Part shown: positions 1,138 through 21,719 of the stretch, piece by piece
Position numbering within the stretch: position 1 is the stretch's first letter
Layout: each line of letters starts with the position of its first letter
Virus record (IMG/VR): IMGVR_UViG_3300037070_002001
Span: 1-39,696 of that record
Reading direction: 5' to 3' (one strand)
Origin: a virus
DNA length: 39,696 nucleotides
The notes under the pieces: model-generated
Databases searched by the model: none
What the model saw: the letters and a program-made list of their open reading frames with translations, nothing else
What the model was told of the DNA's origin: nothing
Made by a program: the position numbers and the translations under genes

Positions 1138-1138
1138 G

Positions 1139-2343: not shown

Positions 2344-2346
2344 GGC

Positions 2347-3225: not shown

Positions 3226-3238
3226 GGTGGTCTCCTCA

Positions 3239-9443: not shown

Positions 9444-9451
9444 GATTTACC

Positions 9452-9595
9452 TCATCGTTTTGTGCCGCACATCTGCGGTTCGTCACCATACGGTTCGCAT
9501 TGGGGTGGAGGTTTCTTAGCGGCCTTCTTTGCTGCGTCCGCGGGAATAGCAGCGAGAGCGATAAGCGAGAGCGTGATAGCAAAGAGTTTAAGCAT
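9452..9595 (-). CDS. Small secreted peptide with signal sequence (47 aa)
   Basis: ATG 9595 to TGA 9452, 47 residues. The first 21 residues read as a Sec signal peptide: MLK, hydrophobic core LFAITLSLIALAAI, then PADA before a likely signal peptidase I site. The mature part would be about 26 residues, basic and Pro-rich, starting AKKAAKKPPPQCEP, with two Cys (QCEPYGDEPQMCG) that could pair in the periplasm. GGAGG stands nine bases upstream, and the ATG overlaps the 3' end of the small terminase candidate by eight bases. No function is recognised. An envelope-targeted peptide is unexpected between packaging genes. Confidence 0.65.
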   Translation of the reverse strand: MLKLFAITLSLIALAAIPADAAKKAAKKPPPQCEPYGDEPQMCGTKR

Positions 9596-9830
9596 TGTCG
9601 TCATCCTCCAACATTTGTCGCAGCACAACTTTGATCTCGCCCTTGACCTCGTGCGTTTGGTCTTGCTTTGGTCTTCCCCAACCGCGCTCCATCAAGGCCA
9701 TGATAGCTTTGTATTTCAGATCATCGTTTGTGTCTTTTCCATTAGCCCAACCGGCCAATGTTCTGATGTTAGCCTCGGTGTACGCCCGACACAGGCTCTC
9801 GAGCCATATTCGATCTTTGATCTCAGGCAC
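9588..9830 (-). CDS. Candidate small terminase-associated protein
   Basis: 80 residues from GTG 9830. An in-frame TAA lies about 30 bases upstream and there is no ATG, so GTG is the likely start, although the best Shine-Dalgarno (AGGAGGGG) lies rather far upstream. The protein is helical and contains AIMALMERGWGRPKQDQ. From memory, this resembles a family common next to phage and prophage terminases, with a core like ALLDRGYGKPKQ. The tail is acidic (MLEDDDNA). Position at the head of the terminase group makes a small terminase, or a fragment-like relative, the leading guess. Its short length and the nearby alpha-CTD-like DNA-binding protein leave that role open. Confidence 0.6.
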   Translation of the reverse strand: MPEIKDRIWLESLCRAYTEANIRTLAGWANGKDTNDDLKYKAIMALMERGWGRPKQDQTHEVKGEIKVVLRQMLEDDDNA

Positions 9831-9898
9831 TTGATCAGGGGGATTGCCCCTCCTCTGTTAGCTATGTTACGGGAGCATACGCCTGCTGGAACCGTTGT

Positions 9899-10126
9899 CT
9901 AGGGGCTGATTTCCAGCTGGTTCAACTGCAACAAGTCTAGATTTCTCAAAGTCTCCACAATATTCCCATACGGGCCAAGATTAAAGGTTTCGCCCCCATT
10001 TACGCTACATTCAAGCATATACAGCATTCCTTCGCGAAGGATGGTGGCATCTATTGTCCGTCCTTCTTTACGTGTTGTTTTCACTGTTAGTAAACGCTCT
10101 GTTTTATTTTCTAGGAATTTTTTCAT
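9899..10126 (-). CDS. Hypothetical protein, 75 aa
   Basis: 75 residues from ATG 10126, with AAGGAG and AGGG upstream. Not recognised. It begins with a basic stretch (MKKFLENKTERLLTVKTTRK) followed by strand-like segments (TIDATILREGMLYMLECSVN) and a C-terminal leucine-rich helix (VETLRNLDLLQLNQLEI). It is a compact alpha/beta protein without Cys clusters or membrane segments. It lies between the 190-residue unknown and the terminase group, in the same direction. The base composition is more AT-rich than its neighbours. Confidence 0.6.
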   Translation of the reverse strand: MKKFLENKTERLLTVKTTRKEGRTIDATILREGMLYMLECSVNGGETFNLGPYGNIVETLRNLDLLQLNQLEISP

Positions 10127-10144
10127 ATTCCCTAATCTCCTTGA

Positions 10145-10717
10145 TCAAGTGAGGTACTGAGGTAATATGTCATCAAGGCTGTCATTTAATGATACGGCGT
10201 CGCGGATGGCGTCGAGGGGGTCTTCTATATCGCGGCGTATGGTTTCGACTGTCGTTCCTGGGATGGCTTCCTTGACCTTGATGACCTCGCGGTAGTTGTC
10301 GAGCATGGCGACTATTTCACCGATCGCGAAGACGACCATCTTTCTGCCATCCTGTACAACGGCGTGCGCATCCGCCATATCGCGCACCAGGGCCAGCACA
10401 GTGCCGTCTGCCAGGGTAGCCTCCCAGACACGGGGATCGAGCTTAAGCGCACCAGCGGCCTCCGCAGCCCGATCTAGGGCGTTGTAGGCTATCACCATGC
10501 GCGCCGCTTCCTCTTGGAGAGTTGGCAGATCTGCGTTCCAGAGAGCGGCATTGTATTTGTAGCGCTGGCGGTCAAATTTCTCCCGCATCGCAACATCCAC
10601 CAAGAGGCGGAGGCGGCCGGCGCCCCACTTGCGTTCCATGTCGATCGCCATGGCGTCGGCGCCGTCGCGGGAGGCGCAGCCTGCGATGTAGGTTCCATGG
10701 CTTGAGCTCCATTTCAT
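10145..10717 (-). CDS. Hypothetical helical protein, 190 aa
   Basis: 190 residues from ATG 10717 with GGGAG seven bases upstream. Not recognised. It appears almost entirely helical: TLQEEAARMVIAYNALDRAA, then WEATLADGTVLALVRDMADA and a helix containing GEIVAMLDNYREVIKVKEA. The acidic C-terminus is SLDDILPQYLT. There is no catalytic motif or membrane segment. It is the first gene after the repeat-rich intergenic region downstream of the primase-helicase, so it may open the leftward late transcription unit. Confidence 0.62.
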   Translation of the reverse strand: MKWSSSHGTYIAGCASRDGADAMAIDMERKWGAGRLRLLVDVAMREKFDRQRYKYNAALWNADLPTLQEEAARMVIAYNALDRAAEAAGALKLDPRVWEATLADGTVLALVRDMADAHAVVQDGRKMVVFAIGEIVAMLDNYREVIKVKEAIPGTTVETIRRDIEDPLDAIRDAVSLNDSLDDILPQYLT

Positions 10718-10768
10718 GATCTGGCTCCCTTGTTTGTCTTTTCGCCATTTCGGCTCTCGTTTTTGGGG

Positions 10769-10790
10769 TACGCTAACGCTACGCTAACGC
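10769..10790. repeat. Tandem 11-bp repeat
   Basis: Two perfect head-to-tail copies of TACGCTAACGC in the intergenic region after the primase-helicase gene. They could be protein-binding iterons. No further copies are seen nearby. Confidence 0.8.
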
Positions 10791-10876
10791 ACGAGACGGG
10801 ACGAGCCGTGCCCACCCCTCCTCGGGTCGGGGGTGGGACGGGTCCTGGGACGATTTTTTCTGGTGATTTCATAGAC

Positions 10877-10932
10877 TTATCAAAAATCGTACCGCATCGT
10901 CCAACCCCCATAGGACGATGGGATTTTGATAA
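10877..10932. repeat. Nested inverted repeat
   Basis: The outer arms are TTATCAAAA (10877-10885) and TTTTGATAA (10924-10932). The inner arms are CATCGTCC (10895-10902) and GGACGATG (10913-10920) around a 10-base loop. Both pairs are perfect. On the minus strand the inner hairpin is followed nine bases later by a run of five T, so a weak terminator for the primase-helicase transcript is possible. A binding site or origin element is equally possible. Confidence 0.65.
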
Positions 10933-10974
10933 AATGGAACCTTAGCGTGAGACGGCATCTGGGACGGTAGTTTC

Positions 10975-13149
10975 CTAGCCAAAATTGGTGTTTTCATCGT
11001 CGTCTCTGCCTCCTACTCCTATCTCCTTCTCGCCCTTTACGGTAAGGCGATACCTGCCACGATGTATCTCAATTAGCCTGTCGCTTTTTAGGTTCATGCA
11101 CATTCTTCCGACTGCGCTTTTGCTGGAACCTATCCTGGCGGCCAGGTCAGCCAGGGACGCCCTGTTGCTGCGGTAAATCTGGCGCAGCAGCTTGTCCTCT
11201 CCGGTCTGTTGTTCCGCCTCTGCCGCCGCCAGGTCCTCATCGGAGAGCGGCTTGGCGACGGCGTTGGGCATGCGCCTGTCCTTGGCGTCCTTGACCCTCT
11301 CCGACTGCCCGACAGCAATTTCAAAGCTGACGGGGTTGAACTCTGGCCCGCGGAACTTGCCCTGCCAGTGCATGGTGACTTGCTTTTCGGAGTTGCTCCA
11401 TAGCGTCAAGTTCCCGTCGATCTCGTTCAAGAAGGAACTTCCTCCCATGGGAAGGAGGTTATCCCGCGCTGCATTTTTGATAGGGTGGCAGTTCACGATC
11501 ACCGACGGCTTGCCGGGCAGGAACGTCAGCTCTCTCAGCAGTCTGGCGTAGGCGCCCTGCTGGCTGTTGCTGTTCTGGTCATCGCCGGGGAAATACGCCG
11601 CCGCGGTATCGACTATTACGAGTACTAGGTCATCGATCTCCGCGGCCGCGGCACGTATTTCCGGCATCCTGCTGGCGATATCAACGACGCCCGCCACAAA
11701 CCGCATTTTCAGGCTCTCGGCGTGAAACCCGTAGGTATCGGCCAGGATCATGAACCTGGCGCGGATATCGTCCGGGTTCTCGCCGGCAAGCAACAGCACA
11801 GTGCCCTTAAGGACCGGACAGCCGTGCATCATCTGCCCCCTGGCGACGCACTGGGCGATGTACATCGCGACGGCCGTCTTGCCGTGCCCCGTCCTGGCGG
11901 TAAGGGAGTATAGGTATCCGCGTTGCAGGATGCCGTCGATCAGGTACGCCGGAGGGGTAAACCCGGCCACGAATTGCTCTGCCGTGAGAACCAATGGGCC
12001 GGAACTGTGCTGTCTTTGTTCTTCTGGCGTGACGAATTTACTCTGGAATGTCGCGGATGTCGCGGATCTCCCCTTCTTGGCGTAGATGGCCACGGCCTCG
12101 TCGAGGTTCCGGCATCCCTGTATCTTACCCTCGGTGAACCGCCTGATGGCGTAGCTGCATTTCTCGACCACCAATTCCGGCCCTTTGCCTGGCCGGGTAA
12201 GGTCCGTATTGCGTGAGTATTGCGGCCATACGGCATCGATTAGCTGCTGTGGCGTAGGGCAGGCGCCAGTCTCCCCGATCAGCTGTATCAGCACCGCGGC
12301 AACGGTTTTGGTGAGGTAAATGTCGCGGCCGTCATTGACGCGGCCTGGGCCGAGTGGCCCCATTTCACGTGAAATAGGCCCTGTGTTAACTTTCTCCCCC
12401 TGATTTGAGGGAACGGACAGTCCTGCATGGTCCGTTTGAATAGGGGGGAATAAAATGACCAGATGCTCAAAAGAATATTCCCGCTGGCCAGGCTCCTTGA
12501 GGGGCGCGATGTAGGTTAGCTCTACTTGCCTGCCAGGCTTGACGGGCCAGGCGATCGAGCCGGCCAGCCGCATCACCCTCGAGGGGTTGGCGACCGTGAC
12601 ATCCCCGTTTAGAGCCTGCGCAATGCCCCGTATAAGGGCCGTGATGGCGCCGTGGTCGGTGACTGGCTCCTCGAGCCGCCACCACAGCTGGGCCCTCCTG
12701 TAGGGCTCCCTGCCCGTTACAACGATGATTGTCGGTTTGTTCTCGAGATAGACGGATTTAGCCGCCTCGGCCACGCCGGGGTCGTCGAGATCCGCATAAC
12801 CGCACGTCAGCGCCCACACGTCATTGTCAGAGGCGCGGCCGAATGGCGGCGTCTCCGGCCGGCGCAGCGCGGCGCCGACATACACATTGCACTGAGGAGT
12901 AGTGTTTAATTTGACCGCTTTCTCCACCAGCTCGTCGAGCCTGTCAGTGCCGAATAACTCGGCGTGGCGGAGGGGATACCTTCCGTCCGAATTGGGGACG
13001 TGGTCCGTCCAAGACAGCTCGATCAAGCCCTCATGGAACCCGTCGAGATAGCCGCCAAAGAGGTGCTCGAGGTGCTCCGCCATTGCGGATGCATTGGGAA
13101 CCGGGAGCGGGTGGATGTTGCTTGTTGGGGGTCTATCTGATATATCCAT
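10975..13149 (-). CDS. Primase-helicase (AEP-type primase, RecA-like ATPase, winged helix)
   Basis: 724 residues from ATG 13149 (MDISDRPP). An upstream in-frame ATG at 13209 lies inside the terminator hairpin and is rejected. Residues about 30-260 look like an archaeo-eukaryotic-type primase/RepB-like domain: CGYADLDDP with D120 and D122, REPYRRAQLWWRLEEPV, and NPSRVMRLAGSIAWP. Residues about 390-620 are a RecA-like ATPase of the DnaB/RepA type: Walker A SLTARTGHGKTAVAMY (K424), GTVLLLAGENPDDIRARF, Walker B LVLVIVDTAAAYFPGDD (D514), and VIVNCHP. Residues about 650-705 form a winged helix (ASLADLAARIGSSKSAVGRM). It would unwind the phage origin and prime DNA for a host polymerase, as no polymerase gene is visible. 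Confidence 0.85.
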   Translation of the reverse strand: MDISDRPPTSNIHPLPVPNASAMAEHLEHLFGGYLDGFHEGLIELSWTDHVPNSDGRYPLRHAELFGTDRLDELVEKAVKLNTTPQCNVYVGAALRRPETPPFGRASDNDVWALTCGYADLDDPGVAEAAKSVYLENKPTIIVVTGREPYRRAQLWWRLEEPVTDHGAITALIRGIAQALNGDVTVANPSRVMRLAGSIAWPVKPGRQVELTYIAPLKEPGQREYSFEHLVILFPPIQTDHAGLSVPSNQGEKVNTGPISREMGPLGPGRVNDGRDIYLTKTVAAVLIQLIGETGACPTPQQLIDAVWPQYSRNTDLTRPGKGPELVVEKCSYAIRRFTEGKIQGCRNLDEAVAIYAKKGRSATSATFQSKFVTPEEQRQHSSGPLVLTAEQFVAGFTPPAYLIDGILQRGYLYSLTARTGHGKTAVAMYIAQCVARGQMMHGCPVLKGTVLLLAGENPDDIRARFMILADTYGFHAESLKMRFVAGVVDIASRMPEIRAAAAEIDDLVLVIVDTAAAYFPGDDQNSNSQQGAYARLLRELTFLPGKPSVIVNCHPIKNAARDNLLPMGGSSFLNEIDGNLTLWSNSEKQVTMHWQGKFRGPEFNPVSFEIAVGQSERVKDAKDRRMPNAVAKPLSDEDLAAAEAEQQTGEDKLLRQIYRSNRASLADLAARIGSSKSAVGRMCMNLKSDRLIEIHRGRYRLTVKGEKEIGVGGRDDDENTNFG

Positions 13150-13187
13150 TGTAATACCTGACTTCCTGCTTTGGCGGTAGGAACGGG

Positions 13188-13224
13188 AAAAAGCCGGGGG
13201 GAACGGCATGCTCCCCCCGGCTTT
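13188..13224 (-). terminator. Rho-independent terminator
   Basis: A perfect 12-bp stem has arms AAAGCCGGGGGG (13190-13201) and CCCCCCGGCTTT (13213-13224) around an 11-base loop. In minus-strand transcripts the stem runs into TTTTT (13192-13188). It sits just after the putative ssDNA-binding gene and before the primase-helicase start, so it should limit read-through into the latter. It also rules out the longer primase start. Confidence 0.9.
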
Positions 13225-13252
13225 CTATTTGATACCTCGATGACAGTGAAAT

Positions 13253-13912
13253 CTAGCCAAAATCGTCGGAGGCGGCCGAGTCTGCCGGCGCGTTCTGGTC
13301 CACCCATGGCGGCTGCGGCACTGGCGTGGTGTGCGACGCCGTCGAGGCCCTCGGCACGAACACCAGATCGGCCGGACGCGCAGCCCATCCGGATATCTTG
13401 AACACCGGGTGGTAGTTGGTCGAGCTTTGCGCTCCCTTGCCGCTCTTGACCGGGATGACGCGATCGACGACGACGACGGGCAGTTTGCCGGCGTTGTTCT
13501 TCTTCTGACTATCGTAGAGCGGGATCAGGTGCTCCATTGACGCCATGAAGGCCTTGCTGTTGCCGGTGATCTCCCTGACGTCTCCGCCGCACGATTTTTC
13601 CAGCTTGACCAGGATCCGCACGCCAGGCTTGTAGTCCTGCGACGGCTGGTCCGGGTACGGCTCGCCCAACCTCACCAAGACCATCTGCGGCGCCTGGCCC
13701 GCCATGAAATGCATCCAGCCCGTCTCGATATTCTCGAGATCCATGATGCATTTGAAGCCAGCGGTGATATCGACGGGCTCGCTGACGAAATTTCCGTCTT
13801 GATCCTGCACGCGATCAATCCGGGTAAAGCGTCCGGCGCGTGCGTCGTACTTCACAAGCGGGGTGAAGTCCGCGCCGTTGACCTTCTCGGGATAACCAAA
13901 GATGTTTGCCAT
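13253..13912 (-). CDS. Putative single-stranded DNA-binding protein
   Basis: 219 residues from ATG 13912 (MANIFGYP), with AGGAAA upstream. An in-frame ATG at 13936 has no better signal. Not recognised with certainty. The protein is strand-rich (FTPLVKYDARAGRFTRIDRV, MVLVRLGEPY, VRILVKLEKSCGGDVREITG) with a disordered Pro-rich tail that ends in acidic residues plus an aromatic (AASDDFG). An acidic aromatic tail is typical of phage and bacterial ssDNA-binding proteins, where it contacts replication partners. Its place beside the primase-helicase and nucleases supports this. A strong terminator follows it, as expected for a protein made in higher amounts than its neighbours. Confidence 0.6.
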   Translation of the reverse strand: MANIFGYPEKVNGADFTPLVKYDARAGRFTRIDRVQDQDGNFVSEPVDITAGFKCIMDLENIETGWMHFMAGQAPQMVLVRLGEPYPDQPSQDYKPGVRILVKLEKSCGGDVREITGNSKAFMASMEHLIPLYDSQKKNNAGKLPVVVVDRVIPVKSGKGAQSSTNYHPVFKISGWAARPADLVFVPRASTASHTTPVPQPPWVDQNAPADSAASDDFG

Positions 13913-13968
13913 TTCACTGTTTCCTATTTTCACCATTTCGCAACTGGGCGCCAGTTGCCAGCGTTCTG

Positions 13969-14139
13969 TTATTCCTTATCGAGCGCGGCGCGGGCGATGT
14001 CGCGAGCTTCCTCACATGAAGAAGGCCAACCGGCTATCTTGCGCAGCGCCGCCTCCAGCGTCTCGATGCGGTTGCGCAGGAGAATGACCTCGTCCATTGC
14101 GGCACTCAACATGGGCGCTGTCAGATGATCATTATTCAT
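13969..14139 (-). CDS. Small coiled-coil protein, paralogue of the upstream gene
   Basis: 56 residues from ATG 14139 to TAA 13969. Its core NRIETLEAALRKIA and end EEARDIARAALDKE match the upstream gene (EARIEALEAALRKIA, EEARNIARAALDKDAG). The middle part and N-terminus differ, so the pair looks like an old tandem duplication. The start overlaps the previous stop as TAATG. It probably forms a short helical hairpin or coiled-coil dimer. Such small proteins are common in phage early regions and have no assigned function. Confidence 0.7.
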   Translation of the reverse strand: MNNDHLTAPMLSAAMDEVILLRNRIETLEAALRKIAGWPSSCEEARDIARAALDKE

Positions 14140-14324
14140 TATCCTGCGTCCTTATCGAGCGCGGCGCGGGCGATATTGCGGGCTTCTTCGATCTCGTCCC
14201 AAGCGGGACCAAAATCACCGTTCTCGCTATAGTCTGCGATCTTGCGCAGCGCCGCTTCCAGCGCTTCAATGCGGGCCTCTACCTCTTCGATACGCGCAAA
14301 CGGCTCAAAATTTAACGTGCTCAT
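14139..14324 (-). CDS. Small coiled-coil protein, 61 aa
   Basis: 61 residues. It consists of a Leu/Ala/Glu heptad helix (RIEEVEARIEALEAALRKIA) and an acidic loop (DYSENGDFGPAWDEI), closed by EEARNIARAALDKDAG. It is the longer member of a tandem paralogous pair with the next gene downstream. The ribosome binding site is poor, and the start lies three bases after the nuclease stop, so coupling is likely. No function is recognised. Confidence 0.7.
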   Translation of the reverse strand: MSTLNFEPFARIEEVEARIEALEAALRKIADYSENGDFGPAWDEIEEARNIARAALDKDAG

Positions 14325-14327
14325 AGC

Positions 14328-15068
14328 TCAAATATTCCAATACCGATACGCCAAGTCGCGCGCACGTGGCGATTGCCAAAGATAGTTGTCGAGGTCAGGC
14401 GCCGTGTTCATGACAAACCAGGCAATTTCGTTGCTGTTGTCAAGGAAGCTCTCGACGCGAAGCGCGAGGGAATACAGCGCGTCTCTCGCCTTGATGCGCT
14501 CCTCGTCCGTAAGTGTGTATGTCTCGACCTTCTTTGGCGTAACGTAGGTGAGGCCTCCTTTCATGTTGTCACCATCGTAGCCGGTATAGAACGCGACTTG
14601 CCTCGCGTGTCCTGGCCTGGCCTCGCTTGGCATCTTATCCGTCGTCTTGAGATCTATGACGAGGGCCTTTGCGATCCACTCAAAATCGAGGATGCCAAAG
14701 ATCTTATATTTTAGCCCCTTGGGATGCCACTCGACCACCTTCTGCACCGCGGACGGTTTACCGTGAGGGCGTAGATGGTCTACCGCCAAGGCAACCATGT
14801 CCCCGATCGTGTCGCGGTAGTGATCCCTGCGGCTGTCTCCAGACAGACGCATTAGATCGTCATACTTTTTAACGGCTATATCGACACAAGTGAATAGCAG
14901 TGAGCCAGGATTGCACAGTGCGTGAGTGACGCCATGCTCGACCGCGGTGCCTCGGTGCGCGAGAGGCGAGCTGAGTTGCTTCTCCCTGATTATCTTTTCC
15001 AACACGAACATTGCGGGAGACGTAGCGAATTGATTGAGGCTCGACGGTGAGTGGCGATCGATCAGCAT
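14328..15068 (-). CDS. PD-(D/E)XK nuclease, RecB/Cas4-like
   Basis: 246 residues from ATG 15068 (MLIDRHSP), preferred over 15143 because AGGGG lies seven bases upstream. The sequence shows the RecB-type nuclease order: SPSSLNQFATSPAMF near the start, AHRGTAVEHGVTHAL with H38 and E44, the first acidic site FGILDFEW (D128), VIDLKTTDKM (D139, K141), and the Q motif HARQVAFYTGY (Q157). These are the metal and DNA-backbone residues of this superfamily. It is probably an exonuclease for recombination or DNA end processing, or for host DNA breakdown. Its start overlaps the VRR-NUC gene by seven bases, suggesting that the two nucleases are made together. Confidence 0.8.
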   Translation of the reverse strand: MLIDRHSPSSLNQFATSPAMFVLEKIIREKQLSSPLAHRGTAVEHGVTHALCNPGSLLFTCVDIAVKKYDDLMRLSGDSRRDHYRDTIGDMVALAVDHLRPHGKPSAVQKVVEWHPKGLKYKIFGILDFEWIAKALVIDLKTTDKMPSEARPGHARQVAFYTGYDGDNMKGGLTYVTPKKVETYTLTDEERIKARDALYSLALRVESFLDNSNEIAWFVMNTAPDLDNYLWQSPRARDLAYRYWNI

Positions 15069-15424: not shown

Positions 15425-15714
15425 TTCGTTGCGCCAATTCTGAGCCGGTATTTGTAAAGACCCTCTTTGATCCTGACACGATCGACGATGCGGGAGCCAT
15501 ATTTTGGTTTTCGAAAATCCCTCAAGCGCGCGCTTACGGACGCCTCGCTGCCCCTGCACTCGTCGGCTATCTTCGCCAGGGTCCTGAACTCCCCGTCCTG
15601 CATCAGCCTATATACCCGCAGCAACTGACCTCTTAACCTGGCGTAGTCCACGTACGGGTCGTAGGTGAACCCATCAAATGCGATCTGCTCAGGAGGATCT
15701 GGGAGTTTAGTCAT
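15421..15714 (-). CDS. Winged-helix DNA-binding protein, 97 aa
   Basis: 97 residues. The centre reads as a winged helix-turn-helix: GQLLRVYRLMQDGEFRTLAK, then IADECRGSEASVSARLRDFR, with a two-strand wing SRIVDRVRIKEGLYKYRLRI. The family is not clear. It resembles helix-turn-helix proteins often encoded beside phage VRR-NUC and replication genes. It overlaps both neighbours as ATGA, so it is translated in one coupled run from the GcrA homologue to the nucleases. A regulatory or replication-accessory role is inferred. Confidence 0.7.
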   Translation of the reverse strand: MTKLPDPPEQIAFDGFTYDPYVDYARLRGQLLRVYRLMQDGEFRTLAKIADECRGSEASVSARLRDFRKPKYGSRIVDRVRIKEGLYKYRLRIGATK

Positions 15715-16223
15715 GCTCGCCGCCTCGGCCTGTGCTCATGGACGATATCATAGTGAGCCTTGCACCAATTGGTCTCACCATAGCTTGGAGCGCCACAGAA
15801 GCGATAAGCTCGCTCCTTGGGTCCTCCATAGGGATAGTGACAATTCCTGAACATCCGCAGCCGTTTGAACTTGATGCCGCGGGGAGTTGGCGGGCCGTAC
15901 ATCCCAGGTGCGAGCGGCTCGAATGGGCCGAGTGGGACGGCGGGTTGTGGTGGTTTAGGTGCCATTCTCACCTCCCTTATTATCGGGTAGTGCACCTGTT
16001 GCGGCCGAGTGAGTGGAGCAAATGACTTTGGGTTTACAATGCGAGGCGGAAGTTTAATCCTGCTGGCGCGGCCGATGCAGGCATTGCGGGTAAGGTTTAA
16101 ACCAAATTCCTTATTCAGTTTTTTGGCGATGATGCGATGAGACAGTTGCGGGTGCTCCTGCATATAAAGCTCTGTCAACCGCGCAGTGAGCTCCGGGTCT
16201 TTCCAGACACTGTTTTTGATCAC
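15711..16223 (-). CDS. GcrA-family cell-cycle transcription regulator
   Basis: 170 residues from GTG 16223, with GAGGAG eight bases upstream. The N-terminal 60 residues carry the GcrA helix-turn-helix: SVWKDPELTARLTELY, LSHRIIAKKLNKEFG and LTRNACIGRASRIKLPPR, comparable to TRNAVIGKVHRL in GcrA. A 60-residue Pro-rich linker follows. The C-terminal part (about 122-162) matches the GcrA end domain: FRNCHYPYGGP, YRFCGAPSYGETNWCKAHYD with C128, C143, C154 and H157. In Caulobacter, GcrA binds sigma-70 and activates promoters carrying methylated GANTC (known). A phage copy may redirect host polymerase or link phage expression to the cell cycle (inference). Confidence 0.85.
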   Translation of the reverse strand: MIKNSVWKDPELTARLTELYMQEHPQLSHRIIAKKLNKEFGLNLTRNACIGRASRIKLPPRIVNPKSFAPLTRPQQVHYPIIREVRMAPKPPQPAVPLGPFEPLAPGMYGPPTPRGIKFKRLRMFRNCHYPYGGPKERAYRFCGAPSYGETNWCKAHYDIVHEHRPRRRA

Positions 16224-16279: not shown

Positions 16280-16513
16280 CTATCCGCGCGTCCGGCTAAC
16301 GGTTGGAGATGAACCGCGCGGAATTGGCGAGTTGTAAAAATCGTTTGGCGTTACTTTGCCCTGGGTCGCGGAGGCGATTAGCTCCATGATGCGTGGGTGT
16401 GGGATGCGCGACCCGTGGCGGTAACGCTGGACGACCTGGCGGCCGACACCAATAGCGCGAGCAAACTCGGCATCGGTCAGGTCGTAACTGTCAAGGTATG
16501 CTGAGAGCTTCAT
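16280..16513 (-). CDS. Cro/CI-type repressor
   Basis: 77 residues from ATG 16513 (MKLSAYLDS), chosen over 16543 because GGGGG lies just upstream. It is a lambda-repressor-like helix-turn-helix: DLTDAEFARAIGVGRQVVQR, then YRHGSRIPHPRIMELIASAT and KVTPNDFY, which is the classic XRE end. There is no C-terminal cleavage or dimerisation domain, so it is Cro-sized. It is transcribed away from the plus-strand operon, and the shared upstream region carries inverted repeats that are likely its operators. It probably governs early transcription. As no integrase is visible, lysogeny is not supported by this alone. Confidence 0.82.
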   Translation of the reverse strand: MKLSAYLDSYDLTDAEFARAIGVGRQVVQRYRHGSRIPHPRIMELIASATQGKVTPNDFYNSPIPRGSSPTVSRTRG

Positions 16514-16535
16514 CTTGCCCCCGTAGCACCATTTC

Positions 16536-16594
16536 GGCGTCACGTCAACGAAAAAGATTTTAAATTATTTTCATTTAGTTGTTGCAGTGACGCC
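16536..16594. promoter_or_regulatory. Divergent early promoter region with inverted operator sites
   Basis: GGCGTCAC (16536-16543) and GTGACGCC (16587-16594) are perfect inverted half-sites, 43 bases apart. The match extends imperfectly outwards and inwards (ATTT before, CAAC after). A -10-like TAAAAT lies on the minus strand at 16562-16557, which would start the repressor transcript next to the left site. On the plus strand TTGCAG (16582-16587) is a possible -35, overlapping the right site. The arrangement suggests control of both early operons by the adjacent repressor. Confidence 0.6.
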
Positions 16595-16641
16595 AAATCG
16601 GTGACAAGATCTGATCACACCGAAAAACAGGGGATTGCAAA

Positions 16642-16815
16642 ATGACCGTCAAAACCACCAACGACCGCCGCATGTCGTGGACCGCGCCCAATCCATATCA
16701 CTGCATCGGCAACGACCTGCACGGCTATTTCGTCGAGACCACATACCCCAGCAGCATGATGTGGATCGTGCCCGGCACCTACCCAGACGACCCCTCCCGC
16801 GTGGTGGAGGCGTAG
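16642..16815 (+). CDS. Hypothetical early protein, 57 aa
   Basis: 57 residues, ATG 16642 to TAG 16815, preceded by GGGG about eight bases upstream. It is the first gene of the plus-strand operon. It is rich in aromatics, Pro and Thr (MSWTAPNPYHCIGNDLHGYF, MMWIVPGTYPDDPSRVVEA). There is no membrane segment. Not recognised. The next gene starts one base after its stop. Confidence 0.65.
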   Translation: MTVKTTNDRRMSWTAPNPYHCIGNDLHGYFVETTYPSSMMWIVPGTYPDDPSRVVEA

Positions 16816-16816
16816 G

Positions 16817-17083
16817 ATGGCATGGATCGTAATGACCTCAACCGCCCAGATGCCGGCCTCCGTCAAGAGCCGCTACCGCAAGATCGCCCTCGTCCAGATA
16901 ACGGACGAGGCCCACGCCGCCGGCTGGCGCCCAGCCAGGATCGATGCCCGCGATAAAGGTATTCTCAGCTTACAGAACCTCGGCCCCTACCACGTCGGCA
17001 CCACGGAGCGCGGCGCCTACCAGAGGGCCTTGGCCGAGGCCGAACAACTCGTCGAACGCCGTAACCTAGAGAAGGCATACTGA
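16817..17083 (+). CDS. Hypothetical early protein, 88 aa
   Basis: 88 residues from ATG 16817, one base after the previous stop. The N-terminal half is strand-like and basic (SRYRKIALVQITDEAHAAGW), and the C-terminal half ends in a helix (YQRALAEAEQLVERRNLEKA). No catalytic or metal motif is visible. Not recognised. Tight packing in the operon supports that it is real. Confidence 0.62.
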   Translation: MAWIVMTSTAQMPASVKSRYRKIALVQITDEAHAAGWRPARIDARDKGILSLQNLGPYHVGTTERGAYQRALAEAEQLVERRNLEKAY

Positions 17084-17084
17084 C

Positions 17085-17462
17085 ATGGAACGCGCAGTTG
17101 CGATTAAGAAGCTCGGTAAGATCCTCGGTAAATCGCTCGGCTACCGCGTAGACCCGAAGGCGCCAGATCAGGATGACCGTGATCGGGCGCGAGAGGACCT
17201 GAGAGACGCGGTGACGGAGCGCGAGGCGCTGGAGCAACAGAAGAAGGCTCGGATGCAGGAGCTTCTGCAAGCCGATGCAGAGTATCAAAGGTTGAAAGCC
17301 GCGCGTGCGGAGGCGGGCAAGCACTGCGAGGAACTGAGCTCAATCACTCATCACTACCGCTTCACAGTCGGCGTGTCGAACGGCATGTTCTTTAGCGTCA
17401 AGGCGCAAGGCGACAGTTGGGAAGAAGTCATCTCCAAGCTAACTGAGAAAGAGAAGGCCTAA
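17085..17462 (+). CDS. Hypothetical coiled-coil protein, 125 aa
   Basis: 125 residues from ATG 17085. It starts with a basic segment (AVAIKKLGKILGKSLGYRVD). The middle third is a strongly charged coiled coil (TEREALEQQKKARMQELLQA). A C-terminal alpha/beta part follows (HHYRFTVGVSNGMFFSVKAQ, then SWEEVISKLTEKEK). Not recognised. A helical stalk with a small globular end would suit an adaptor that binds a host protein, but this is only inference. Confidence 0.62.
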   Translation: MERAVAIKKLGKILGKSLGYRVDPKAPDQDDRDRAREDLRDAVTEREALEQQKKARMQELLQADAEYQRLKAARAEAGKHCEELSSITHHYRFTVGVSNGMFFSVKAQGDSWEEVISKLTEKEKA

Positions 17463-17463
17463 C

Positions 17464-17577
17464 ATGGACGTCCACTCCCTCCTCCTCGGCGCCATTACGA
17501 TCGGCATCGTCCTAATCATCGCCGCCTGCCTCACGGCATCGCTGAACATCCTCAATCAAGACGAATGGGAGAATTAA
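17464..17577 (+). CDS. Single-pass membrane peptide, 37 aa
   Basis: 37 residues, ATG 17464 to TAA 17577, directly after the coiled-coil gene. One hydrophobic segment (LLLGAITIGIVLIIAACLTA) is followed by a polar tail NQDEWEN. It has the size and layout of small phage membrane peptides whose roles include host membrane modulation and lysis control. No function is recognised. Confidence 0.58.
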   Translation: MDVHSLLLGAITIGIVLIIAACLTASLNILNQDEWEN

Positions 17578-17578
17578 T

Positions 17579-17953
17579 ATGGCACGCGCACAATCATTTA
17601 TGTTTGATTACGACGAGCTCCCGCTGGTGATCCACAACGGCGTCAAGGCCGCCCTCATCAGCGGCAAGGCCGAGGTCGAGTATGACCGCGACGGAGACTG
17701 GAGTGTCGGCCGCGACTGGGGTCCAGGGGCGGTCCTCGTCGAGGGTTATGGCGAGGTCGATGTTACTACCGGCAAGCGCCAGTGGCCCTATGTACCGGCG
17801 CCAAAAGAGCTAGCCGACATCATCGTGCACCGCCTCGAGAACGAGTGGGCGCCACGGGTGCAGGAAGCAGTCAACGAGATGATCGAGCACGATTACGAGT
17901 GCGAAGCCGACGACGCCGCGGATGCGAAACGCGACAGACTGATGGAGAGGTAA
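17579..17953 (+). CDS. Hypothetical acidic early protein, 124 aa
   Basis: 124 residues from ATG 17579. It has a mixed first half (FDYDELPLVIHNGVKAALIS, EVEYDRDGDWSVGRDWGPGA) and a helical acidic C-terminus (RVQEAVNEMIEHDYECEADD). The overall charge is negative, as in several phage proteins that mimic DNA or bind host enzymes, but there is no specific match. Not recognised. Confidence 0.62.
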   Translation: MARAQSFMFDYDELPLVIHNGVKAALISGKAEVEYDRDGDWSVGRDWGPGAVLVEGYGEVDVTTGKRQWPYVPAPKELADIIVHRLENEWAPRVQEAVNEMIEHDYECEADDAADAKRDRLMER

Positions 17954-17954
17954 G

Positions 17955-18167
17955 ATGAACGGCAACATACAGAACGAACTATCCACCATGCGGAAGCTGA
18001 CTGACCGCATTTCCCGCCTCGAGGCCGACCTGGCGGAGTGTCAGGAATATCTCGAGCGGCACTACATGGACGTCGTCGATGGCGACGACGGCCGGCCGGC
18101 GCCCAACGAAGCAATGCGCCTCGTCAGCATGATCAAGGACACCCTGCACGGGGAGGGAAACTACTGA
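17955..18167 (+). CDS. Hypothetical coiled-coil protein, 70 aa
   Basis: 70 residues from ATG 17955. The first half is a helical heptad region (MRKLTDRISRLEADLAECQE). The second half is acidic with a further helix (NEAMRLVSMIKDTLHGEG). Its TGA overlaps the next ATG by one base. Not recognised. Confidence 0.6.
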   Translation: MNGNIQNELSTMRKLTDRISRLEADLAECQEYLERHYMDVVDGDDGRPAPNEAMRLVSMIKDTLHGEGNY

Positions 18168-18385
18168 TGAATAAATCATTGCCGGACGACCGAGAAATAG
18201 CCGACGAAATGACTGCCATAACCGACCTGATGATGGAAAGAAACACAACTCCCAAAGTAGGACTGCTGGCGTTAGCCTCGATTTGGATAGCCGGCTTGCA
18301 GCATAGTGGGATCGACAAAAAAAGGGCGATGGACCTTTTTGAAAAACTCTGGGATGCGTCAGCAAGGACAATGCACGATGCGTAA
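18167..18385 (+). CDS. Hypothetical helical protein, 72 aa
   Basis: 72 residues from ATG 18167 (MNKSLPDDREIADEM), which overlaps the previous stop as TGATG. A longer frame from 18038 exists but would lie inside the previous gene. All-helical: TAITDLMMERNTTPKVGLLA, LASIWIAGLQHSGIDKKRAM, then DLFEKLWDASA. Not recognised. Confidence 0.6.
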   Translation: MNKSLPDDREIADEMTAITDLMMERNTTPKVGLLALASIWIAGLQHSGIDKKRAMDLFEKLWDASARTMHDA

Positions 18386-18587
18386 CGAACCAGTCGCTCA
18401 GCAACTCAACAGCATTCTCGTCATACTCGGTGACATCTCCAAGAAGGCCCTCAAGCCTGACATGTACGAGGAGATTAAGGAGGAGAAAGCAACTCTATAC
18501 TCCATCTACAACAAGACAGCTCTTATCATTGATTTTTTGGGTGCCTATAATCCACCGCGGTTTAAGAAGATACGGAGGAGATCATGA
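18378..18587 (+). CDS. Hypothetical helical protein, 69 aa
   Basis: 69 residues from ATG 18378 (MRNEPVAQQL), overlapping the end of the previous gene by eight bases. Helical (NSILVILGDISKKALKPDMY, then YSIYNKTALIIDFLGAY) with a basic end KKIRRRS. Not recognised. The end overlaps the next start as ATGA. Confidence 0.58.
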   Translation: MRNEPVAQQLNSILVILGDISKKALKPDMYEEIKEEKATLYSIYNKTALIIDFLGAYNPPRFKKIRRRS

Positions 18588-18847
18588 GCAGAGACGACAG
18601 AAGCATAAGCGATGGCTGGGGCCAGTATAGCCACGCCATGCCGGAACAATGCGAGGATTACGAAATAGACCAGCATCGCCTTACGTTCTATGCCGGTTGT
18701 GCTTTCATGTTTCGTCAGATGTCCTTCGCTATGCGAGATAAGGATGTTGATAGGCGGCTGAAAAAGGTTCTGGCCCTGCATAAGGAAATTGACGTTTTTC
18801 TCGAGCATGAAATGATGGTTCGCTTGTCAACAGAGGGGAATGCATAA
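18584..18847 (+). CDS. Hypothetical helical protein, 87 aa
   Basis: 87 residues from ATG 18584, coupled to both neighbours. A polar N-terminus (MSRDDRSISDGWGQYSHAMP) precedes helices LTFYAGCAFMFRQMSFAMRD and RLKKVLALHKEIDVFLEHEM. Not recognised. It is a soluble, Met-rich protein. Confidence 0.6.
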   Translation: MSRDDRSISDGWGQYSHAMPEQCEDYEIDQHRLTFYAGCAFMFRQMSFAMRDKDVDRRLKKVLALHKEIDVFLEHEMMVRLSTEGNA

Positions 18848-19287
18848 TGATTGATCCTGTGAAACTAGCAGTCGCCACCGTGATCGTTATCCCGGCCGTT
18901 CTGATCGGCTCGATTTTTTACGATTTGCCTGAGATAAATCGTAAGGCAGATCCGGCGGTAACCCTGGTGCAACCAAAGTATCAAGAACGTCCGCCGTTCG
19001 ACACGGTGGAGTGGGTTCCTGATGAGGCGATGAAAAAGCGAGCTCTGCTGCGGGCCTATCTGCTCAACGGCAATAGCATGGTCGGACGAGCCGCTATCGA
19101 CGTCAGCGACGATCCCGTAGTGACTGGGGTTATTCCGGCCGAGGAAGAGGAGGATCGAATAAACTATCTGCAACGCAAATGGGAACGGCTGTTTGGCGAT
19201 AAATTCGATCCTTCACCTGATGAGAGCGGGGAAGTGAAGCCCGCCCCCACCAAGAACAAGGTTCACCAACATCAAAATCGCAATTAG
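18847..19287 (+). CDS. Membrane-anchored protein, 146 aa, last gene of the plus operon
   Basis: 146 residues from ATG 18847, coupled as AATGA. A single N-terminal hydrophobic segment (PVKLAVATVIVIPAVLIGSI) should anchor it in the inner membrane with the rest outside or inside the cell. The remainder is polar, containing RPPFDTVEWVPDEAMKKRAL, an acidic EEEEDR and a Pro/Lys tail. Not recognised. Its last 25 codons overlap the end of the convergent holin candidate, and no terminator is seen between the two operons. Confidence 0.6.
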   Translation: MIDPVKLAVATVIVIPAVLIGSIFYDLPEINRKADPAVTLVQPKYQERPPFDTVEWVPDEAMKKRALLRAYLLNGNSMVGRAAIDVSDDPVVTGVIPAEEEEDRINYLQRKWERLFGDKFDPSPDESGEVKPAPTKNKVHQHQNRN

Positions 19288-19425
19288 TGCGACGATCACC
19301 CACAGCAGCTGAACTACCTTCTCGGGGATTGGTATGCCAACAATCCCCAACACCCAGATGATCAAATAGACCACGATCGCCAGGATACAGATATATATGA
19401 GCAGATTAATAACTGCTGCGATCAT
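19213..19425 (-). CDS. Two-span membrane protein, holin candidate
   Basis: 70 residues from ATG 19425, with GGAAGGAG eight bases upstream. Two membrane segments (VINLLIYICILAIVVYLIIW and VVQLLWVIVALIAILMLVNL) are joined by a short turn with GIPIPEK. From memory, similar two-span proteins sit beside endolysins in many alphaproteobacterial phages. Holins permeabilise the inner membrane to release or activate the endolysin. Adjacency to the amidase and the topology support the role. The glycine-rich, basic C-terminus is encoded in the convergent overlap with the plus-strand gene. Confidence 0.65.
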   Translation of the reverse strand: MIAAVINLLIYICILAIVVYLIIWVLGIVGIPIPEKVVQLLWVIVALIAILMLVNLVLGGGGLHFPALIR

Positions 19426-19430
19426 GGCCG

Positions 19431-20405
19431 CTACTCCTTCCAGGGATACGTGACTTCTACCTCGTCGTCAGTCTCCAGGCCTAGATCCGTCATTAGTCCT
19501 GGGGAGAGATCCGCTACCCTACCCGTGTCCTGATGTGGCCCCCAGTCGGCCGGCCAGGCGGTAAGACTGGCGCCAGTCTTGGGGTTGGTCACCAGCGCGA
19601 CCTTGTCAGGATCTTGCAAATAACTTTTCGGGAACTGGTTATAATCCCAACGGCAAGCCAGGTAATGTACGGCAGGGTTAAGTCGCCTAGCCAGCCCAGT
19701 TCCGCTGTCGATCGGGAGGAAGAGCTGTTGGTTGTCCGGGTTGATGGTGGAGTGAAAGGCCAGGCCTTCTGAATGGCTTACTCCGGTATCGTCGGGTCCA
19801 CCGAAAAACGAGCACTTCCCCCTCACGAAGAACACGTCCTCGGTGGGCTTCTCCGGCTCCGTGGGAGGTTTTGTGCCTGTGCTGGCACCACCTACCACGT
19901 CGGCGATACTACGCGCTATATGGGCTCTCTGAGCCTTGTATAGGTCGGCATCCACGGTGGAATCAACGAAGCAGACCTCGAGGAGTACGGCCGGTGCCGA
20001 GGTACCGTTCAGGAACGCCAAATCAGTCCGTTTCTTGGGGCCGCGGTCCAAAAAAAGACCAGCGTTCGCGATGGCTTGCGAGAGCTCCTTGGCGAGGGCC
20101 TCCTGCGTCACATACAACACTTCGGTTCCCATGGCCTTTGTGGTATGCTGGTAGGCGTTAAAGTGAGTTGAAATATCTAAGTCCCGCACCTTTGAGTTGT
20201 GGAAGTCCACGATGCGGCCGAGGTTTTCCGACTGGGTCTTGGAAACGTCGTCATGGAAAGTCGTGACATCAACGCCGCGGTAGCGCAGCTCTGTGGCTAT
20301 AAGCTCGACTAATGCCCTGGCGCAATCGACCTCGTCGAGGATGTCCGCAGCGCCGCGGATGTACTTGCCATGTCCTGAACTGATGACGACCCTGTTATAT
20401 GCCAA
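19431..20405 (-). CDS. N-acetylmuramoyl-L-alanine amidase (endolysin)
   Basis: 324 residues. The start is TTG 20405, supported by a perfect AGGAGG five bases upstream. Residues 1-170 are an Amidase_3 domain that cuts the bond between MurNAc and the stem peptide. Zinc and catalytic residues are visible: H12 in ISSGHGK, E25 in DILDEVDCARAL, H81 in DISTHFNAY, and E143 in AVLLEVCFVDS. A Pro/Thr linker (172-190) leads to a C-terminal domain resembling a double-psi beta-barrel or RlpA-like module (SFFGGPDDTGVSHSEGLAF, then TGRVADLSPGLMTDLGLETD). This may bind the cell wall. The holin candidate follows after five bases. Confidence 0.9.
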   Translation of the reverse strand: MAYNRVVISSGHGKYIRGAADILDEVDCARALVELIATELRYRGVDVTTFHDDVSKTQSENLGRIVDFHNSKVRDLDISTHFNAYQHTTKAMGTEVLYVTQEALAKELSQAIANAGLFLDRGPKKRTDLAFLNGTSAPAVLLEVCFVDSTVDADLYKAQRAHIARSIADVVGGASTGTKPPTEPEKPTEDVFFVRGKCSFFGGPDDTGVSHSEGLAFHSTINPDNQQLFLPIDSGTGLARRLNPAVHYLACRWDYNQFPKSYLQDPDKVALVTNPKTGASLTAWPADWGPHQDTGRVADLSPGLMTDLGLETDDEVEVTYPWKE

Positions 20406-20414
20406 GCTGTCCTC

Positions 20415-21719
20415 CTATAGAAATTGGAAGTCCCACTGCCCATTAATCGTTATCACGTCCGGGGCGTGGGTGTTGCCCTCGTAACCAATTTCCCAGTGCG
20501 TGGCATCAATCTGGGTGAACGTGCCATTGGTGCCATAGCCGCGGAACTCGATGTTGTCCCGGCCGCGCATGTCCGTGATGGTGTCGCCATTAGCTTCGCC
20601 GGCAACGAACACGAAGGTGTCGGAGCCTCGGCCGCCGGTGAGGATGTCCGTGCCCTTGCCTCCGGTGAGTATATCATTGCCAGCGAGCCCGTTGATTGTG
20701 TCGTTGCCGTCTCCCCCCACTAGAAAGTCCGCGCCGCCCGTGCCGTTGATAATCAGACCCTCGGGCGGAGGCGGAGGGGGCGGTGGAGGAGGAGGAGGAG
20801 GCGGAGCCGGCTCGCCAGTGTTGTCAACAAACTGGACGTTCGAGGACTGATTATTGAATAACTCGCTGAACTGCGGCGCCTGCGTCGGGCTGAGGTTGTT
20901 GTGCCAGACGAAGTTGTCGGTAATCAGAGCATTGTTGGATTTAAATGCAACGATGCCGACGCCACCGTTATCGTGCACGGTGTTGTTCTGCACCAGAAAT
21001 CCACCGGTATAGCCAGTGTTGTTGTTACTATCGAGCGAGATCCCGTTGCCGTCGGTGATGGTGTGGAAGCGATATTCTGGCACCAAGTTTGCATTACCGT
21101 ACGAGGTATTTCCATCGATGATAATGTGGGGGCCAGCGGCATTATCGAAATTGACTGAGGTGACGACCCCGATGCCGCTGTTCCCATAGGCGCTCCAATG
21201 CGCGTTGTCGTACACCGTGTTGTTGAGGATCTGAATGTAGTCTGAATTACCCGTCTCGATGCCGCCACCCGGCATGTCGTGCACGATGTTGTCCTCGATG
21301 ACAATGTGGTGTGAGCCGATGGCGACGATGCCGTTACCGTTCAATGCAGCGTTGCTTGGGCTCTCGTTCGCGAGCGCGTAGGCCAACGTGTAATTGTCCG
21401 CGCCGCCCTCGACCAGAAACCCTTTGAAGTGAATATAATTGGCTTCGATGTAGACCGCGTTCCAAGTGCCTGTGCTGTCAATCACCGGGTGATGTCCGTT
21501 CATGGCCTGGTAGGTGATTGGTGCAGTCGATGTGCCATCAATTTTGATGTCGAGCACAAGGCCGCCGGCAAAGCCGGAGTAAGTGCCATCCATGACCTCG
21601 ACGACGTCGCCAGGCTTGGTGTGGTTGGCGGCAGCCTGTATCGTGTCGAACGCCGCGCCGATGGATATCCCGTTGTTGTTGTCGTTGCCGGTGTTGGAGT
21701 TGACGTAATACGTGGTCAT
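20415..21719 (-). CDS. Parallel beta-helix protein with RTX calcium-binding C-terminus
   Basis: 434 residues from ATG 21719, which overlaps the previous stop as ATGA and has GGAG upstream. Residues about 5-300 form a right-handed parallel beta-helix, as in pectate/alginate lyases and alginate epimerases: repeated coils such as HHIVIEDNIVHDMPGGGIET, DYIQILNNTVYDN and GGFLVQNNTVHDNGGVGIVA. A 14-residue polyproline linker follows (about 304-317). Then come RTX nonapeptides of the GGxGxDxxx type (GTGGADFLVGGDGNDTINGL, GNDILTGGKGTDILTGG, RGSDTFVF), which fold on calcium. The likely role is a polysaccharide depolymerase, lyase or epimerase acting on exopolysaccharide. Catalytic residues are not certain. 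RTX repeats are rare in phage proteins. Confidence 0.78.
   Translation of the reverse strand: MTTYYVNSNTGNDNNNGISIGAAFDTIQAAANHTKPGDVVEVMDGTYSGFAGGLVLDIKIDGTSTAPITYQAMNGHHPVIDSTGTWNAVYIEANYIHFKGFLVEGGADNYTLAYALANESPSNAALNGNGIVAIGSHHIVIEDNIVHDMPGGGIETGNSDYIQILNNTVYDNAHWSAYGNSGIGVVTSVNFDNAAGPHIIIDGNTSYGNANLVPEYRFHTITDGNGISLDSNNNTGYTGGFLVQNNTVHDNGGVGIVAFKSNNALITDNFVWHNNLSPTQAPQFSELFNNQSSNVQFVDNTGEPAPPPPPPPPPPPPPPEGLIINGTGGADFLVGGDGNDTINGLAGNDILTGGKGTDILTGGRGSDTFVFVAGEANGDTITDMRGRDNIEFRGYGTNGTFTQIDATHWEIGYEGNTHAPDVITINGQWDFQFL

Follow-up and report, generated by a model that had tools for sequence, protein, structure and literature searches.

A ten-gene operon beside a Cro/CI-type regulator in an environmental tailed phage: a probable accessory unit directed at the host or at competitors

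What would a phage do with ten small, tightly packed genes, none of which resembles a known protein? The question is raised by the plus strand at positions 16642-19287 of the virus record IMGVR_UViG_3300037070_002001, which is known from environmental sequence alone and is analyzed here over its full 39,696 bases (hereafter the window). These ten genes (g1 to g10) had been singled out in an earlier note on this DNA, and the results presented here suggest that they probably form an accessory operon on the repressor side of a tailed phage, of the lysogeny-module or early-left type, that lacks lysogeny genes in this virus and whose products would be directed at the host or at competitors. The recognized proteins of the window are a portal, a major head protein, a terminase, a primase-helicase, an endolysin, and tail proteins. 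Among isolates, the best portal identities were with a Rhizobium phage (49%), a Microcystis phage (41%), and a Bradyrhizobium phage (36%), and the host is likely an alphaproteobacterium because of these portal relatives and because a homolog of the cell-cycle regulator GcrA lies next to the operon. Apart from g1-g10 and one call of 31 amino acids (aa) at the left edge, all called genes of the window are on the minus strand. The regulator, GcrA, and holin-like genes discussed below were not called by the simple gene caller used; they, too, are on the minus strand.

The description of ten tightly coupled genes in the earlier note was borne out. All ten open reading frames (ORFs; Table 1) start with ATG and are separated by gaps of +1 to -8 nucleotides (nt), and this chain of coupled ORFs of at least 35 aa covers 2,655 nt. 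Simulation of 1,000 first-order Markov samples gave chains of no more than 4 ORFs with ATG starts (up to 1,101 nt) or 6 ORFs with any start (up to 1,599 nt), which rules out chance ORFs. Further, the ratio of nonsynonymous to synonymous substitution (dN/dS) was 0.19-0.36 in six pairs of g5, g8, and g10 sequences, indicating purifying selection, although these values are rough where dS exceeds 2. The ten genes probably form one transcription unit. Third-position GC content is 0.69-0.88 in g1-g6 and 0.55-0.59 in g7-g10, as compared with 0.65 in long genes, a split that may reflect two origins.

The operon diverges from a small regulator gene of the Cro/CI type, as does a lambda-type early-left operon, and that gene is the first of a minus-strand row leading to the replication genes. 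The regulator protein, minus its first two residues, matched Pfam HTH_3 with an expect value (E) of 2.3e-7 (at 16361-16501), and its longer GTG-started form matched the transcriptional repressor family phrog_35 (3e-7). A gap of 128 nt (16514-16641) separates the regulator ATG from g1 and holds a separated inverted repeat whose value was reached by none of 500 shuffles, with arm lengths taken from repeats already found; under less strict rules that let overlapping palindromes count as well, 18 of 300 shuffles reached the value of the window. Gaps in the related contigs L007 and L020 contain repeats of the same kind with other sequences (0 of 500 shuffles each). The unit would have a candidate promoter in this gap, from which it would fire on infection and which the small helix-turn-helix (HTH) protein would later shut. 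Rather than serving in the virion, the products of the operon would target the host cell or competing phages.

The same slot was found in L007, L013, L014, L020, L021, and L024. These L-numbered loci are related viral contigs obtained by scanning a viral collection with g3, g5, g8, and g10 as the only queries; the g5 scan led to L007, while the g10, g8, and g3 scans led to L013, L014, L020, L021, L022, and L024. Two contigs duplicate viruses already in the set: in their overlap, L015 and L007 represent one virus, with 100% identity in three genes, and L002, which matches window 978-14411 at 100% over 13,434 bases, represents the virus of the window, with the operon outside that part. Across the slot, g4, g5, g8, and g10 (less certainly g7 and g9) recur in the same order as a skeleton, with exchangeable genes, among them g3, in between. 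In L007, the unit is bordered by GcrA and VRR-NUC genes on one side and a holin-like gene on the other and holds relatives of g4, g5, g8, g9, and g10 in order, the remaining positions being filled by different genes. Judging from these contigs, the genes of the window are unrecognized rather than unique, as related viral contigs carry the slot.

Lysogeny genes accompany the slot in several of these relatives. An integrase gene (PF00589) lies within the slot of L013, L014, L021, and L024 and within the equivalent operon of L005, and outside any unit with skeleton genes in the L003, L025, and L031 records (a total of 8 of 22 records searched). A second repressor-type gene heads the operon in four contigs, being of S24 type in L003 and L005 and part of a divergent HTH_3 pair in L013 and L028. 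A search of the window returned no PF00589 integrase, no S24 repressor, and a single HTH_3 gene on the minus strand. Hence, the operon strand of the window holds neither the maintenance repressor that marks a lysogeny module nor, as judged by PF00589, the integrase or excisionase that marks a lambda early-left operon. Because the lysogeny genes of the slot are missing, the window would represent a virulent member of its lineage or one that is retained in cells by other means.

Two known arrangements invite comparison. The early-left (PL) operon of lambda-like phages carries ral, sieB, kil, and int-side genes. Like it, the operon described here diverges from a Cro-type gene across operator-like gap repeats, comprises small accessory genes, and has an integrase in the slot in relatives; unlike it, the operon has no integrase in the window and no recognized antiterminator, and the nuclease and replication genes are on the other strand. 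Family and phage searches, the sole test applied, gave no relation of the ten genes to lambda early-left genes. In the lysogeny module of temperate phages, a repressor, an exclusion gene, and an integrase lie together, an example being the module of TP-J34 with the exported protein Ltp. L013 resembles such a module, as one of its strands carries a repressor-type gene, small genes, an integrase gene, and the gene of a protein that is probably exported; L021 and L024 resemble it in part. The window differs in that both lysogeny genes are missing, and g10 was not found to be related in sequence to any known exclusion protein.

For genes on the repressor and integrase strand, superinfection exclusion is as usual a function as host takeover or anti-defense, and this raises the possibility that the operon is a superinfection-exclusion or lysogenic-conversion module that is expressed by a prophage and keeps other phages out, either at the envelope (through g4 and g10) or within the cell. 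In L005, L013, and others, the operon strand also carries a repressor-type gene and an integrase gene; together with the exported appearance of the g10 family and a promoter-like site belonging to g3 itself in three contigs, this makes the narrower reading possible. It is nonetheless less than probable, since the window has no integrase or second repressor, so that a prophage state would be hypothetical for this virus. The missing integrase and second repressor, along with three genes without relatives, would also be expected if the operon were a decaying remnant of a lysogeny module that is functionless in a now virulent phage. Such decay is hardly credible given that all ten frames are intact and coupled and that dN/dS is 0.18 for g3 (window versus its 89% identical relative in L022) and 0.28 for g5.

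If the operon is an accessory unit directed at host or competitors, as preferred here, its products would act in two compartments. The two membrane proteins of the earlier note could be identified as g4 and g10 (helices judged by eye); these would act at the cell envelope, most likely in superinfection exclusion or lysis timing, whereas g3, g5, and g8 would act in the cytoplasm on host partners. The g10 family has a conserved core, PFxTxxWVPxEAxKxxALxxAYxxNGxSM...IDVS, and was found in 6 of 12 records (alignment rows match by construction) as well as in L022 (1.4e-13) and, by eye only, in L024. By eye, the relatives in L020, L022, and L024 have a sequence of signal-peptide shape at or near the start that ends in AxA before Gln, and the N-terminal stretch of g10 in the window is anchor-like. 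The family is therefore probably exported, and the core of g10 would lie outside the inner membrane because of the signal peptide read in its relatives. Against solved structures, the best match of the g10 profile had an E of 0.26 and was taken as coiled-coil or chance.

The 3' end of g10 overlaps a convergent holin-like gene, for whose protein no Pfam family was found, and the lysis genes are convergent in all six contigs of the set that reach that far (the window; L007 and L024, by tblastn; L013, L014, and L021, by eye). Such an arrangement could indicate that the operon is an accessory to lysis control in which g10, exported or anchored in the membrane, acts on the convergent holin as an antiholin or a timer of lysis. 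The predicted export of the g10 core and the distance of about 0.5 kilobases (kb) or less between g10 and the holin-like gene in L007, L013, and L014 are in keeping with this idea. It is nevertheless quite unlikely, considering that g8 and g10 have an integrase gene between them in L013, L014, and L024, that short plus-strand genes separate g10 from the holin-like gene in L013 and L014, and that L021 has lysis genes without g10.

The earlier note had called this the typical place for host-takeover and anti-defense factors. This is fair with respect to position, and the content of the slot does vary between relatives, but superinfection exclusion fits at least as well. Strictly taken, that proposal holds that the operon is expressed in the first minutes of infection to disarm restriction, CBASS, and similar defenses, and within it g5 could be an acidic nucleic-acid mimic. 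The location beside the regulator and the variable gene content agree with this, as does the net charge of g5, the single acidic protein of the earlier note, which is indeed -13 in the window and -6 and -9 in its relatives. This charge is modest, however, and neither relative is as acidic; fold searches with a g5 model of moderate quality gave no usable match. No match was obtained in the libraries searched, none of which is a library of anti-defense proteins, while the slot is on the repressor and integrase strand in several relatives and g10 appears exported. In addition, 8 of 49 six-base palindromes are strongly depleted in the window as compared with 11 of 3,428 non-palindromes, and a virus with a broad anti-restriction protein would have no reason to avoid restriction sites and GANTC in this way. 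An operon devoted strictly to takeover and anti-defense is thus unlikely, and the virus seems to rely on site loss against type II restriction because so many restriction sites are depleted from its genome.

Among the individual genes, g3 was the largest without a relative when it was used to scan the viral collection. This single-sequence scan returned ten loci that are 43-90% identical over nearly the full length and, together with the window, make up a family of 11 contigs, ten of which were brought in by the scan itself; a search of 25 records detected g3 in none of the remaining 14. A total of 26 of 125 alignment positions are invariant, with 8 in the first 15 residues, 10 at 35-70, and 8 at 95-118, and the protein consists of a basic N-terminus, a coiled-coil-like middle, and a conserved C-terminal block. 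Values of dN/dS were 0.08-0.26 in the eight closest pairs. In the stretches compared, most of which other than the window are only 6-13 kb, the contigs for the most part have little besides g3 in common, and other called genes are common to 11 of 55 pairs of g3 contigs; a twelfth linked pair, the window and L028, shares the regulator (tblastn). None of the families in PHROGs was matched by more than two of the 11 g3 members scanned (best E 0.013), and tblastn against isolate phages gave no match at E 0.1. The g3 profile matched occludin (0.047) and the P4 polarity-suppression protein (0.69) among solved structures, both taken as coiled-coil or chance. A second weak g3 match in the L031 record (E 4e-5, positions 37-108) may likewise be coiled-coil noise.

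The distribution of g3 suggests that it may be a moron captured into operons. Morons of tailed phages are extra genes with their own promoter and terminator located between genes of the opposite strand. As in morons, g3 stands alone on the plus strand, flanked by minus-strand genes, in L023 and L029 (and there only), and promoter-like sites lie near it in L023 (TTGACT-17-CATAAT) and in L025 and L026, where an extended -10 element, TGCTATAAT, lies upstream of g3 (5 and 1 of 1,000 shuffles, respectively). L026 also has a terminator-like hairpin of 11 pairs after g3 and a serine-recombinase-like gene on the same strand that ends 512 nt upstream of it. In contrast to morons, no one contig shows all of these features; g3 is at the end of a row in L025 and L026 and within a same-strand row in the window and six other contigs, where no extended -10 of full quality is present.

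A more far-reaching proposal is that g3, with its almost invariant basic N-terminus (MERAVAIKK...), represents a new family of phage effectors, a moron that moves among phages that are unrelated but infect one group of hosts and that binds a single conserved target in them, with g4-g5 and g8-g10 as a second, syntenic envelope kit and the operon as part of an alphaproteobacterial cell-cycle takeover. The cell-cycle component was considered because CcrM/HinfI sites are purged from the virus, which also encodes a GcrA of its own. As a whole, this proposal is highly speculative and very unlikely to hold in full. A link between g3 and the purging of GANTC was dropped, as the g3-bearing contigs L023, L025, L026, and L029 keep about half of the expected sites.

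Homology of the skeleton genes was assessed by leave-one-out tests against 500 shuffles. The resulting E values were at most 2.8e-29 for g5, 1.7e-13 for g8, and 5.2e-17 for g10, and ranged from 3.9e-9 to 0.028 for g4; the same-place relative of g9 in L007/L015 was weak (E 0.04-0.06) and above all 500 shuffles. For g7, a relative in L024 was detected (hmmsearch 2.9e-5; blastp 35%), and kinship with the same-place genes of L020 and L021 was unsupported in the leave-one-out test. Relatives of g5 were confined to the window, L007, and L021, in all of which it adjoins g4. Its model has four strands and two helices with a moderate predicted local distance difference test (pLDDT) score of 71.6, and its profile found nothing among solved structures; phrog_9554 (E 0.013) was rejected as it was matched by just one of three members. 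g8 is present in 8 of 12 records searched (L015 among them; alignment rows match by construction) and in L024. It was modeled as three helices (pLDDT 84.7), and the best match of its profile to solved structures, a designed coiled coil (E 0.0031), was taken as coiled-coil or chance. A weak PHROGs assignment of g8 as virion structural (E 0.022) was not repeated by the three relatives scanned and was discarded.

That none of the ten proteins is recognizable, as the earlier note stated, was confirmed for curated libraries and isolate phage records. No protein matched Pfam, PHROGs, NCBIfam, or PADLOC better than E 0.01, and thus none falls into a virion or metabolic family of Pfam, PHROGs, or NCBIfam below that value; the known-defense models of PADLOC gave no match for any of the ten at E 1. 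Structure-based searches with g5 and g8 also left these genes unrecognized. Among 50,697 isolate phage records, neither blastn of the whole region nor tblastn of g2, g3, g5, g7, g9, and g10 gave a recognized match (g1, g4, and g6 were not searched as proteins), and tblastn of the g8 of L013 gave only matches at E 0.8. Scans of bacterial genomes, performed with g10 and g5 only, gave no confirmed relative. The nearest isolates by portal include the Rhizobium phage RHph_I3_18 (MN988542; 49% identical) and the Bradyrhizobium phage ppBjS10J-1 (OP596615; 36% identical). None of g1-g10, g3 included, was found in these two by profile search at E 0.5. ppBjS10J-1 does have, beside its HTH genes, a relative (6e-21) of one exchangeable gene of the L020 operon (7036-7269), and that gene has relatives in L024 (3e-34) too.

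A number of observations weigh against an accessory operon directed at the host or at competitors and against the mobility of g3. A consensus promoter scan listed no promoter in the gap between the regulator and g1, such that the promoter region that the earlier note had the operon share with the repressor finds partial support, from the inverted repeat. In L007 and L024, HTH_3 was not over threshold, though small look-alike genes sit there. The g3 contigs are partly kin, with the window sharing four genes with L024, three with L031 (the terminase among them), and two with L030. In L025 and L026, g3 closes a plus-strand row (after 161 and 512 nt, respectively) and minus-strand genes then follow, while in L029 it sits among structural-looking genes and therefore does not need this operon. 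Nine of the 11 regions upstream of g3 have no extended -10 of the quality described above, and the totals of the promoter and terminator scans in L023, L025, L026, and L029 were within the range of shuffles. Fold searches gave nothing usable for g5 (best Z 4.2; best Foldseek E 0.21) or g8. Finally, g1, g2, and g6 have no relatives among the loci on hand and hence no functional support, a result that may well change as none of the three was used as a query of the viral collection.

The analysis turns ten unrecognized genes into a short list for testing. The first gene to test is g3, which is conserved in many different contigs, is under purifying selection, and has no match among the curated families and isolate phages that were searched, a profile that would suit a gene doing one specific job in the host. 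The recurring skeleton of g4 with g5 and of g8 and g10 is the second choice. What stands for g1, g2, and g6 is that they are open frames in a real operon. The earlier note counted three partly coiled-coil proteins; by eye, such stretches were seen in two, g3 and g6.

Table 1. Positions in the window of the operon genes, the candidate operator, and the neighboring genes
Feature	Coordinates	Strand	Basis and relatives
g1, 57 aa	16642..16815	+	ORF and coupling; no family, no relative among loci on hand
g2, 88 aa, basic	16817..17083	+	ORF and coupling; no relative among loci on hand
g3, 125 aa, possible moron; family in 11 viral contigs	17085..17462	+	Scan, alignment
g4, 37 aa, single transmembrane helix (by eye)	17464..17577	+	Relatives in L007, L020, L021, L024
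g5, 124 aa, acidic alpha/beta protein	17579..17953	+	Relatives in L007 (66%), L021 (48%)
g6, 70 aa, coiled-coil-like	17955..18167	+	No relative among loci on hand
g7, 72 aa	18167..18385	+	Relative in L024 only
g8, 69 aa, three-helix protein	18378..18587	+	Relatives in L003, L007/L015, L013, L014, L020, L021, L024
g9, 87 aa	18584..18847	+	Weak same-place relative in L007/L015
g10, 146 aa, N-terminal membrane anchor, conserved core of ~38 residues	18847..19287	+	Probably exported family
Small HTH_3 (Cro/CI-type) regulator gene, 77 aa from ATG 16513	16280..16513	-	Pfam HTH_3, phrog_35
Inverted repeat, left arm (candidate operator/promoter element)	16527..16549		18/23 positions complementary to 16581-16603
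Inverted repeat, right arm	16581..16603		TTGCAG at 16582, possible plus-strand -35 (by eye only)
GcrA cell-cycle regulator homolog, directly behind regulator gene	15711..16223	-	Pfam GcrA 5.4e-13
Holin-like membrane protein	19213..19425	-	71-79% identity to genes in L007, L015, L017, L018; 'holin' by eye
Endolysin	19431..20405	-	phrog_435 4.6e-45

GcrA works with CcrM methylation in its hosts, and GANTC is, among other things, the HinfI site. The same sequence is the CcrM site according to an excerpt of a review (PMC13076061), which says nothing in that part of GANTC depletion in phages, and phiCbK-like phages carry GcrA too, as stated in an excerpt of PMC3556154. With the window included, 6 of 12 records were over the cut-off for GcrA (the others being L007, L013, L014, L017, and L020), and the gene is on the operon strand in L013 and L014. 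GANTC is nearly purged from the window, with 11 sites (5115, 8304, 13278, 19960, 23886, 25040, 27053, 31794, 33197, 34529, and 38662) as compared with 148 expected from base composition and 79 from a maximal-order Markov model. Genes longer than 300 nt hold 11 sites as compared with 83.9 +- 7.4 in 200 synonymous-codon shuffles (minimum 64). Observed and base-composition-expected counts were 0/57 in L007, 1/43 in L017, 0/27 in L018, 2/30 in L020, 1/22 in L021, 0/31 in L022, 2/38 in L024, 1/40 in L027, and 1/47 in L031. Depletion was milder in L003, L005, L006, L009, L010, L011, and L013 (0.36-0.50 of expectation), L014 (0.21), and L012 (0.83), as well as in L023 (25/46), L025 (23/45), L026 (25/46), L028 (6/21), L029 (13/22), and L030 (10/42). 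Six-base palindromes nearly absent from the window are AAGCTT, ACCGGT, ACGCGT, CCCGGG, CTGCAG, GAATTC, GGATCC, and GTCGAC.

Further genes were noted in the window and in the operons of its relatives. A small minus-strand gene of the window (9899-10126), for which no isolate-phage match was found at E 0.1, has an 88% identical relative inside the plus-strand operon of L007 (8584-8805). With dN/dS at 0.05 and dS at 1.42, recent transfer from L007 to the window, as the protein identity might suggest, was rejected on account of the dS; on these values the gene is old, strongly conserved, and differently placed in the two viruses. Two adjacent paralogous short genes on the minus strand (13969-14139 and 14139-14324) share the pattern EALEAALRKIA...ARAALDK, and similar genes, as judged by eye, occur in L017, in L021, and within the L014 operon (867-1082). 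In L021, the corresponding operon includes a cytosine-5 DNA methyltransferase gene (1238-2533; Pfam 6.3e-49). Lastly, between the tail-fiber and endolysin genes of the window, the minus strand encodes a right-handed beta-helix protein with RTX calcium-binding repeats (20415-21719), the C-terminal part of which is 67% identical in L022.

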